Positions 4,044 through 8,353 of a DNA stretch of 21,860 nucleotides are shown piece after piece (position 1 is the stretch's first letter; each line of letters begins with the position of its first letter). The stretch is from a virus. A model generated the notes under the pieces. It did not search any database, had not been told where the DNA came from, and saw only the letters and a program-made list of their open reading frames with translations. The stretch spans positions 1 to 21,860 of IMG/VR virus record IMGVR_UViG_3300020450_000110; one strand, written 5' to 3'. The position numbers and the translations under genes are program-made.

Positions 4044-4205
4044 ATGAATAGTAGTGAAGCATACTTAGAATTACTAGAAGAAATACAGAACGACTTAGAA
4101 GAAGCGGTCGAAGAAGATAGTTGGGATGGTGTCGGTGATGTGATACTTAAGATAAGAGAAGCTTTGGACAATCCATTTGATAATTATAATACCGAGGATT
4201 GGTAG
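4044..4205 (+). CDS. Small acidic protein (53 aa) upstream of tmRNA
   Basis: A near-perfect AGGAGG at 4034-4039 lies 4 nt before the ATG, one of the strongest ribosome sites in the window. The product is very acidic, with helices of Glu/Asp and Leu (residues 5-24 and 33-42). No family recognised; acidic mini-proteins of phages often bind host nucleic-acid-binding proteins, which is conjecture here. The end of the gene overlaps the probable promoter of the tmRNA, and its stop lies 6 nt before the mature tmRNA 5' end. Confidence 0.65.
   Translation: MNSSEAYLELLEEIQNDLEEAVEEDSWDGVGDVILKIREALDNPFDNYNTEDW
4163..4190 (+). promoter_or_regulatory. Candidate sigma70-type promoter for the tmRNA
   Basis: A perfect TATAAT lies at 4185-4190, with a TTTGGA/TTGGAC-like -35 at about 4163-4169 (15-16 nt spacer, slightly short). 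Initiation would fall near 4197, giving a short 5' leader that RNase P would remove to yield the mature end at 4212. The element lies in the 3' end of the small acidic gene. Confidence 0.4.
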
Positions 4206-4211
4206 GAATAT

Positions 4212-4629
4212 GGGGCTGTATTGGAATTCGACAGGTGTTGTTTGATAATAGAGTGCAGCAGAGATTGAGTAGGTCTCGTTACAAAATACTCACAATTCTA
4301 TTTGGCGAACAATCGCTAGAAGGGTTGGACATTGATTGGCATTTAGCTGAGTATGATTACTCAGTTGAGTTACCAATCGGTAATGACCAACCAACTTACG
4401 CATACGCTGCTTAAGTTACTGAGTTGTCTAACACTCGGTCATAAAAAAAGTTAGACGAACTCTCTTTAGTTAGGATGGAAGTTAGAGATTAAAGAAACTA
4501 CCAGTTGACAACTCTGAGCAAAGTTGTAAGTAGTTTGTCAGTTACTTCTTATTGAAACTGAACTAAGCTGTGAATGACTTATTTGATGAGACATGCTGGA
4601 CGCGGGTTCGACTCCCGCCAGCTCCACCA
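4212..4629 (+). ncRNA. ssrA: Transfer-messenger RNA (tmRNA), complete, with long tag reading frame
   Basis: tmRNA rescues stalled ribosomes by acting as an alanyl-tRNA and then as a short mRNA for a degradation tag. The 5' end GGGGCTG (4212-4218) pairs with CAGCTCC (4619-4625), followed by A and an encoded CCA (4627-4629). The T arm GCGGGTTCGACTCCCGC and the 5' motif GGAATTCGACAGG are classical. Pseudoknot PK1 is clear: GAGA 4261-4264 with TCTC 4274-4277, and TGAGTA 4266-4271 with TACTCA 4287-4292. Eleven nt later, with T and A at -5 and -4 as in E. coli, lies GGC at 4304. The tag frame from there runs 36 codons to TAA 4412-4414 and ends TYAYAA. Other helices are visible downstream, for example GTCTAAC/GTTAGAC. 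At 418 nt it is longer than the E. coli RNA (363 nt). Phage tmRNAs are known (for example in some mycobacteriophages) but uncommon. Confidence 0.95.
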
Positions 4630-4671: not shown

Positions 4672-5196
4672 ATGAAGATGTATAAGGAATTAGTTGCATT
4701 ATACATTGCGTTGATTACTCTGGCCAATGGTTGGGTATCAACAGTCTTCCTAGAAGACAAAAACGAACAACTGGTTGAGGCAAGACAACAAATTATTGAC
4801 CTCAAGAAAAGGTTGTTGATGTACGAAACAGAAGGAATGAACGTGACCGTAACTATGTATGAACCCGTTCGTTATCAAACTGATTCTACACCGAACATTC
4901 TCGCGGATGGAACGCGTATTAGGGTACACAAGGCTAGCGAGTACCGATTTATAGCGGTGAGTAGAAACCTTTTGAAACGACATGGTGGGTTTTTAGATTA
5001 CGGAGACTTTATTCTTCTGAAGGGTACAAATCATAAAGATGGTGTATATCAAGTAAGAGACACTATGAATAAAAGGTTCGTAAACAGAATTGATATTCTA
5101 GAGTCGCCAGGTGTACGACCTTACAAGTTTGACAAAGCTAGTATTGTCAAGACGGATTTATTAGTGAATAATGAAATATTAGTTGATACTTATTAG
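4672..5196 (+). CDS. 3D-domain (double-psi beta-barrel) protein, possible cell-wall hydrolase (174 aa)
   Basis: The ATG at 4672 is chosen because AAGGAG lies at 4654-4659 and any upstream start would run into the tmRNA. Residues 6-27 form a hydrophobic segment acting as signal peptide or membrane anchor. Residues 30-55 are a likely coiled coil. From about 58 the sequence matches the 3D domain of MltA- and YocH-like murein enzymes: VTMYEPV, TDSTP with D71, AVSRNLL, YGD, then VRDTMNKRFVNRIDI with D130 and D141. The three Asp residues are the family hallmark. It probably acts on or binds peptidoglycan in the periplasm, perhaps in lysis. No dedicated holin adjoins it. Confidence 0.7.
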   Translation: MKMYKELVALYIALITLANGWVSTVFLEDKNEQLVEARQQIIDLKKRLLMYETEGMNVTVTMYEPVRYQTDSTPNILADGTRIRVHKASEYRFIAVSRNLLKRHGGFLDYGDFILLKGTNHKDGVYQVRDTMNKRFVNRIDILESPGVRPYKFDKASIVKTDLLVNNEILVDTY

Positions 5197-6637: not shown

Positions 6638-8353
6638 ATGTGTGGAATAATAGGTGGGAATATGTTTCCCAAACAAGAACAAGTTGTAAAGGGTTTGACA
6701 AGTATGATGCATCGTGGTACAGACGGTAATGTAATTTTTTCATTCGATAAAAAGGAGATGTATTTATCTCATAATCGTTTATCTATCCAAGATACATCTC
6801 AGTTGGCCAATCAACCGTTGATTTCCTCCGATGGTAGGTATTATCTATCGTTTAACGGAGAATTATGGAAATCGTCTTTTGAAAAATATTGGAAAAAATT
6901 GAATAAGGAATACAAATTTAAAACCGAAAAAAGTGATTCAGAACTTTTACTTTATTACTTAATAAAAAACATAAAAAAATTAAAACAAAAATTACCAAAG
7001 CTAGATGGTATGTTCTGTTTCGCATTATACGATAAAGTTGAAGATACGACTTATCTAGGTAGAGATTTTATAGGTAGATTACCTTTTTATTACATCTATG
7101 AAAATGGATTATTTAGTTTTGCTAGTGAGGCTAAAGGACTAGTAGATAGTTTAGAAGGGTCATATTATAAGATAGACGTGAAAAATCCTAAGTACGTTCC
7201 TATATCAGAGTGGAGAATAAAGGAGTCTATACATCCTGTTATGCCTGGTACATTGATAAAGTTTTCACCAAGTCCCGTGGAAGAAGGTAGTTACATAAAA
7301 GAAGAAATTAGATGGTGGGACTTTAAACCCTCAAACTATGATAAAAAAAATAAAAACTATCCAGCACTTTACACTAGGACAAAAGAAGAATTTGAAGACT
7401 TTGAATCCGATGATAAAGGGCTGAAATATTATGTTGAAGGCTTTAGAGAAAAATTAATAAAAGCTGTGGACAATGAAACTATTAGTGATGTTCCAATATG
7501 TACAATTTTGAGTGGTGGTATAGACAGTACAGTCATAACACACATTTTAAAAAATGAATTAGGTATGGATGTTGAGGCATTTGTAGTCAATGTTAATCCA
7601 ACTAGAAAGTCAAAGTACAAGGATGATTTATATTACGCTAGGTTAGCGGCTAAACAATTTGATATAACGTTACATGAGGTCAACGTTGATAGAATAGACA
7701 TTGAAGATTTGTTACTGGATTCAGTATGGGCTAGTGAGACTTATAAATGGACACAGGTGTCTCCAGCTGTTGCACAGTTGTTCTTAGCATGGGAGATACG
7801 AGATAAAGGTTATAAGGTTGTGTTTGGTGGTGAGGGTGCTGATGAAATATTCGCATCATATGGTGATGTAAAAAGGTTCTGTTGGAATCAACCCATATAT
7901 TGGCATCAGAAAAGAATTAATCTGTTAAATGGCTTACATAAAAGTAACTTGGTTCGTACGAATAAAGCTATGATGTATGGTGGTAAGGTTGAGTTGAGAA
8001 CACCATTTTTAAATAAAGAGGTGGTAGATTTTGGTTTAAGAATACCAACAAGATATCGTGATGAAAATTGGAATGACAGAAGCACAGATAATATAGATGT
8101 TTTCGATACCAAGGTCGCTGATGGTAAGGATATGAAATTTATTTTGAGAAAGGCTTTCGAAAAAGATATACCAAACGAATTACTATGGAGACCAAAAAAA
8201 ACTTTTCAAGTTGGCTGTCATACAGACTATCTCAAGAAAGAACAAAAAAGTTTAGATGATATTTTTGAAAAATTATTTATCAATCGTACGAGTAGACCTA
8301 AGTCCAAGAATATTGGACATATAGGAGCTAGAGCGACTATTGTAAATGTGTGA
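6638..8353 (+). CDS. asnB: Glutamine-hydrolysing asparagine synthetase
   Basis: Converts aspartate, glutamine and ATP to asparagine, glutamate, AMP and PPi. The N-terminal class II glutaminase is intact: catalytic Cys2 (MCGIIGG), HRGTDGN, HNRLSIQD, FNGELWKSS, and SDSELLL. The C-terminal synthetase has the pyrophosphate loop SGGIDST at 292-298 and GGEGADEIFASYGD. In E. coli AsnB the loop lies near 233, so about 60 residues are inserted between the domains, including a charged stretch around 225-265. Total length (571) is close to the family (about 554). An AAGGAG lies upstream of the ATG. Homologous enzymes also make amides on sugars and cyclise peptides, so the substrate may not be free aspartate, although the motif set is that of ordinary AsnB. 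Confidence 0.93.
   Translation: MCGIIGGNMFPKQEQVVKGLTSMMHRGTDGNVIFSFDKKEMYLSHNRLSIQDTSQLANQPLISSDGRYYLSFNGELWKSSFEKYWKKLNKEYKFKTEKSDSELLLYYLIKNIKKLKQKLPKLDGMFCFALYDKVEDTTYLGRDFIGRLPFYYIYENGLFSFASEAKGLVDSLEGSYYKIDVKNPKYVPISEWRIKESIHPVMPGTLIKFSPSPVEEGSYIKEEIRWWDFKPSNYDKKNKNYPALYTRTKEEFEDFESDDKGLKYYVEGFREKLIKAVDNETISDVPICTILSGGIDSTVITHILKNELGMDVEAFVVNVNPTRKSKYKDDLYYARLAAKQFDITLHEVNVDRIDIEDLLLDSVWASETYKWTQVSPAVAQLFLAWEIRDKGYKVVFGGEGADEIFASYGDVKRFCWNQPIYWHQKRINLLNGLHKSNLVRTNKAMMYGGKVELRTPFLNKEVVDFGLRIPTRYRDENWNDRSTDNIDVFDTKVADGKDMKFILRKAFEKDIPNELLWRPKKTFQVGCHTDYLKKEQKSLDDIFEKLFINRTSRPKSKNIGHIGARATIVNV

Follow-up and report, generated by a model that had tools for sequence, protein, structure and literature searches.

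A tmRNA gene with a conserved, predicted 36-codon tag template in marine phages

By analogy, the closest precedent for the locus described here is the extended ssrA tag of Mycoplasma and Mesoplasma, which is about 27 residues long, ends in NYAFA and belongs to a cellular gene in bacteria without ClpXP. Gur and Sauer are said to have reported in 2008 that this tag is read by Lon, and a 2009 title by Ge and Karzai, listed in PMC11986505, speaks of multipartite recognition of the extended Mycoplasma tag; to our knowledge, no hairpin has been described in its template. Reading of extended Mycoplasma tags by Lon is recorded in PMC9382460, and tags at large are recognised, chiefly through the hydrophobic end, by ClpXP, ClpAP, Lon and FtsH (PMC3985003). 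The commonest tag length is given as 10 residues (PMC11915505), and the reported range of 8-35 is descriptive rather than defining (PMC8012679). Among phages, the marine phage Melnitz carries a two-piece tmRNA, and the roles proposed for phage tmRNAs include upkeep of the hijacked translation machinery and recycling of host protein (PMC9004378). Long tags are found in unrelated phages as well: the tmRNA of mycobacteriophage Kumao (L119:326-732) has a 31-residue tag, ADYNDADSMLQASASLLAEAVLTERGALVAA, in the ARAGORN call. The literature searched, with most subscription papers outside its scope, contained no conserved extended tag in phages.

The window, that is, the whole 21,860-base stretch of DNA analysed here, is a virus fragment; its gene content, with a baseplate wedge, a peptide deformylase and others, is consistent with a myovirus-like marine phage. 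By baseplate protein, its nearest named records are Microcystis phage Mel-JY01 (46% identity) and Flavobacterium phage immuto (40%). The tmRNA gene, its parts and its neighbours are as follows.

2193-2831, + strand: peptide deformylase with a SEC-C motif, a few kb from the tmRNA in most relatives
4044-4205, + strand: small acidic ORF of 53 aa without known family, just upstream of the tmRNA
4212-4629, + strand: one-piece tmRNA gene with encoded CCA at 4627-4629 (ARAGORN; RF00023, 99.6 bits)
4261-4292, + strand: pseudoknot 1 (PK1), read from the sequence, arranged alike in relatives
4293-4303, + strand: 11-nt spacer setting the resume codon, with U at -5 and A at -4 of GGC 4304
4304-4414, + strand: predicted tag reading frame, 36 codons and TAA, GEQSLEGLDIDWHLAEYDYSVELPIGNDQPTYAYAA (Rfam alignment; relatives)
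4304-4317, + strand: hairpin SL1 (GGCGA....UCGCU), beginning at the resume codon (folding; compensatory changes)
4313-4357, + strand: conserved core SLEGLDIDWHLAEYD, family SLxGLx[I/V]DWH[L/M]A (core pN/pS 0.23-0.24)
4323-4392, + strand: long helix SL2 (GGUUGG.CAUUGAUUGG ... CCAAUC..AAUG.CCAACC) (folding; compensatory changes)
4358-4378, + strand: variable linker YSVELPI, changing length by whole codons among relatives
4379-4411, + strand: degron-like end GNDQPTYAYAA, the entire tag in the ARAGORN call
4419-4456, + strand: pseudoknot 2, read from the sequence, which is kept in long-tag relatives
4672-5196, + strand: 174-aa ORF, phrog_21574, downstream of the tmRNA and syntenic in most relatives

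ARAGORN and Rfam give the identical span for the tmRNA, and the RF00023 covariance-model match runs full length over model positions 1-374 (E 3.6e-38; the curated cut-off is 47 bits). The tRNA-like ends, GGGGCTG and CAGCTCCACCA, pair over 7 bp as an acceptor stem that includes the alanine identity pair G3.U70, and the CCA is encoded. Both programs find the ends in one-piece, not permuted, order, unlike those of a two-piece tmRNA. Stem 1 of PK1 pairs 4261-4264 with 4274-4277 and stem 2 pairs 4266-4271 with 4287-4292; the stems of pseudoknot 2 lie at 4419-4424/4433-4438 and 4426-4432/4450-4456. The E. coli spacer, AAAAAAUAGUC, is likewise 11 nt long (PMC2481249). The tag frame, open over 4304-4411, closes with a hydrophobic end and a stop codon (TAA 4412-4414), as expected of a tmRNA. 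The phage-encoded tmRNA proposed in an earlier note is thus confirmed by ARAGORN and RF00023, and the tRNA-like ends, CCA, PK1 and 11-nt spacer that it listed are all present. Its description of the tag as far longer than usual also holds, since 36 codons here, and up to 43 in relatives, lie beyond both the commonest length of 10 and the published 8-35 range.

By membership, the gene is therefore a tmRNA, sharing with RF00023 the ends, the G3.U70 pair, the CCA, PK1, the spacer with A at -4, and a tag frame followed by later pseudoknots. It differs in its 36-codon tag and in the two hairpins inside the tag frame. Like the Mycoplasma/Mesoplasma tag it is long and has an aromatic-Ala end (TYAYA(A) here, NYAYA in some short-tag relatives), but the two share no core, and the likeness of their ends is one of motif rather than of demonstrated homology. 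Kumao and Melnitz also carry phage-borne tmRNAs, the former with a long tag, but their tag sequences are unrelated to ours and a conserved core with linker was not seen in either.

The position of the resume codon determines how much of this stretch is tag. The Rfam alignment places it on 4304-4306 and treats the bases that follow as an insertion; the alternative placement at GGT 4379, which the earlier note had set against its own reading, did not appear in the covariance model. Syntenic short-tag relatives (9-11 codons) begin at the codon aligned with GGC 4304, directly after PK1, and A at -4 is found in 58/58 distinct long-tag relatives, so that a start at GGC 4304 stands on all three lines. 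The start codon itself varies among relatives (GGC, GGT, GAC, GAT, AGC). ARAGORN agrees with the note on the gene but not on the start, giving GGT 4379 and the tag GNDQPTYAYAA, which is the last 11 codons of the 36-codon frame. Its tags in relatives with the same core are varied and partial, with shorter starts (EYDYS..., GDSQ...), and it reports all 31 residues in Kumao; from this we infer that the GGT 4379 call is a search-limit effect. As ARAGORN misplaces the tag start in long-tag tmRNAs, the family is probably mis-annotated elsewhere.

A single sequence with 36 open codons counts for little, and since the frame by definition runs to its first stop, openness by itself is trivial; the case is made by the relatives. 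An initial search with the downstream neighbour gene as query, in which the tag was not used, returned syntenic tmRNAs of two classes, a short one with 9-codon tags (for example GTQFNYAYA, GNQVNFAYA and GNTANYAYA) and a long one like the window. With the long-tag alignment as query, 86 loci were found and 80 kept, and all the complete ones have an open frame between the codon after PK1 and the stop. Since a tag-anchored search selects for the peptide, the collection was repeated blind to the tag, anchored on the peptide deformylase. A tmRNA was present in 47 of these 79 loci, 39 of them long (34-40 codons) and 8 short (9-11 codons), with none between; over all searches, about 90 related loci have tags of 34-43 codons.

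In the tag-blind set, all 31 distinct long frames (window included) lack an internal stop and the +1 and +2 frames each hold one in 31/31, the core pN/pS is 0.23 and 64% of changes fall at third positions. The tag-anchored set of 58 (34-43 codons) gives a core pN/pS of 0.24; the +1 frame holds a stop in 56 sequences and the +2 frame in 57. Both the core and the C-terminus are conserved, and length differences, of whole codons, lie mainly in the linker. Across 32 diverse tags, L5, L8, I10, D11, W12 and H13 do not vary, with V also occurring at position 10 in the tag-blind set, and the degron-like end is kept nearly always. The coding case draws its weight from length, conservation up to the YAYA end and the substitution pattern, which together indicate that the 36-codon frame is very likely translated. 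The conserved core appears unlike any known tag. It gave only noise in Pfam and PHROGs and is not repeated in any other protein encoded by the retrieved loci, tag and core had no PDB match, and a tblastn search of 50,697 phage records with the 36-aa tag found nothing. The structure predicted for the tag (mean pLDDT 62, neither helix nor strand) is uninformative.

The segment 4304-4378 is not peptide alone but part of a conserved RNA helix, with SL2 running from the core as far as the QPT codons. Folding is better for the tags than for counterparts with randomised synonymous codons (mean z -2.8; 98% below -1), and in SL1 and outer SL2 95% of cells are paired, where synonymous randomisation gives 82% and 69%. 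In a 24-sequence alignment, 90% of cells pair, dropping to 20-44% in slid controls. Changes on both sides of a pair occur at 8 pairs and in 31 cells, the cell count being 10.6 in shuffled alignments (0/500 shuffles as high). In sequences with GAC as resume codon, the SL1 stem is rebuilt from other bases. Run on the gapped alignment, RNAalifold returned SL1 and small hairpins only, and the support for SL2 is the named-structure count together with the synonymous-codon control. Because of these controls and the compensatory changes, we consider it very probable that the stretch is selected as RNA as well as peptide, which makes the tag frame a compact example of selection acting on peptide and RNA helix together. 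A hairpin beginning at the resume codon is unusual and counts against the explanation that we prefer below; in E. coli, a helix over the resume-codon region is thought to block a ligand (PMC2481249). At the level of comparative sequence evidence, the frame, its start codon, the coding constraint and the RNA structure are established.

The earlier note had further proposed that 75 nt were added in frame to an ordinary tag, and had called for comparison with related phages. That comparison finds the long segment in 39 of the 47 tag-blind tmRNAs, and the proposed addition is not borne out: in the trees built from the 174-aa neighbour and from the deformylase, short-tag phages are nested inside long-tag ones (2 changes and 1 change, respectively). 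Loss or replacement of the long segment therefore appears at least as likely, and an ordinary tag plus insertion is not the favoured order. As both trees have a midpoint root and uneven sampling, the direction of change is not proven.

The best overall explanation, to which we give a probability of roughly 0.6, is a working phage tmRNA with a putative 36-codon template conserved in a large clade of marine phages. After alanylation by the host and binding to host SmpB, the tmRNA would enter stalled ribosomes of the infected cell, where translation would resume at GGC 4304. The ribosome would unwind SL1 and SL2 and add Ala and the encoded tag. A host AAA+ protease would recognise the YAYA(A) end, just as with ordinary tags, and the core SLxGLxIDWHLAEYD may form a second docking site for a protease domain or adaptor, held by the variable linker at a distance from the degron-like end. 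Products of trans-translation would then be steered to a particular protease or broken down more quickly. As for the hairpins, their most likely role is to hold the larger mRNA-like part in a compact shape, which would let the ring of pseudoknots still fold and move through the ribosome.

The analogy with extended Mycoplasma tags read by Lon makes a bipartite degron the most likely form of the tag, with the core most likely its second docking site, a role that we hold tentatively, at somewhat less than even odds. The core is absent from short-tag relatives, which counts against the preferred explanation, as do the differing ARAGORN start, the negative Pfam, PHROGs and PDB comparisons of the core and the absence of SspB and SmpB genes from the sampled related records. 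That the phage changes the handling of tagged products, as the earlier note suggested, is plausible. Perhaps, and again with slightly more doubt than confidence, this clade has made trans-translation a delivery system, in which truncated proteins of the infected cell receive a degron together with a conserved 15-residue binding peptide recruiting a specific protease, an adaptor or another factor; that peptide is written in the dual-coding RNA hairpin. The deeply conserved core offers a concrete handle on why phages carry tmRNA, and these phages appear to have built an extra signal into the rescue system, with a peptide of 34-43 residues versus about 10 in bacteria.

Other explanations differ in whether the segment is read at all. 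If ARAGORN were right, translation would resume at GGT 4379 with the tag GNDQPTYAYAA, leaving 4304-4378 as an untranslated hairpin between PK1 and tag. GGT 4379 too has A at -4, the 11-residue end looks complete and 4304-4378 is a real RNA structure; set against this are the core pN/pS of 0.23, the whole-codon indels, the 31/31 frames without an in-frame stop beside two frames that are always closed, the different, shorter ARAGORN starts (EYDYS...) in same-core relatives, and the agreement of Rfam and short-tag relatives on 4304, which leave this start very improbable. A still smaller chance attaches to a ribosome hop over the insert, as in T4 gene 60, or to its removal as an intervening sequence, readings suggested by the glycine codons GGC 4304 and GGT 4379 that flank the strong hairpin. 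Amino-acid constraint and whole-codon indels are not expected of skipped or removed sequence, and the start codon varies among relatives; as the gap is under amino-acid constraint, both readings were rejected.

Two further alternatives accept translation of all 36 codons. Selection mainly for length, giving a flexible tail for AAA+ engagement or for clearing the exit tunnel before release, would suit the narrow 34-43 codon range, the linker's freedom to change and a predicted model without stable fold (mean pLDDT 62), but it leaves invariant L5, L8, D11, W12 and H13 in 32 diverse tags unexplained, and we regard it as unlikely. Somewhat less unlikely, though still doubtful, is a non-proteolytic role of the core, either in recruiting or titrating some factor of host or phage or as a nascent peptide acting within the ribosome tunnel. 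Such a role would agree with a short, strongly conserved motif that matches no library and that, at about 18-33 residues from the stop, would be inside or just leaving the tunnel at termination. No partner gene tracking with the long tag was found, however, and the degron-like end is nearly always kept, which suggests degradation.

Among 19 related phage records, many of them fragments, SmpB and SspB genes were absent; ClpP-like genes occur in four and are more likely head-maturation proteases. Neither these records nor the Pfam, PHROGs and PDB comparisons yielded a candidate partner for the core. In the window, the deformylase has a C-terminal SEC-C zinc motif and an N-terminal DUF5522-like segment, and a 571-aa ORF at 6638-8353 is a putative glutamine-dependent asparagine synthase (MCGIIGG start, read by eye). 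An exact-match scan with the tmRNA 5' end gave no match. A genome scan gave one member of the family, a phage contig inside a marine MAG (bacterium TMED198, L106) that also holds a cellular tmRNA; tmRNAs of that bacterium's family mostly have a 9-residue ADYGYAAAA-like tag, and the MAG is at most a hint to the host. A match in an archaeal MAG (L107) was discarded as a chance 12-residue match at a place with no tmRNA.

Several tmRNAs outside the family were also encountered. In four cellular genomes of the G011 family (L144-L147), the tag reported by ARAGORN, ENNFTSVNIQDNFILL or a variant of it, is odd and lies late in the RNA; it is probably another misplaced tag frame. The 484-kb uncultured phage LR756508.1 has a tmRNA (L110:2683-3126) with U at -5, A at -4 and 36 codons from a post-PK1 GGC, GVNNADYESAGFTAEDFAQMDGESLYHGSERKPAAV; its tag is unrelated to the core in the window, ARAGORN takes another frame, and it is possibly an independent long tag. 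Permuted tmRNAs without tmRNA annotation are present in Synechococcus phage BUCT-ZZ01 (L124), L125 and L126, and in BUCT-ZZ01 a hypothetical protein is annotated across part of the permuted tmRNA.
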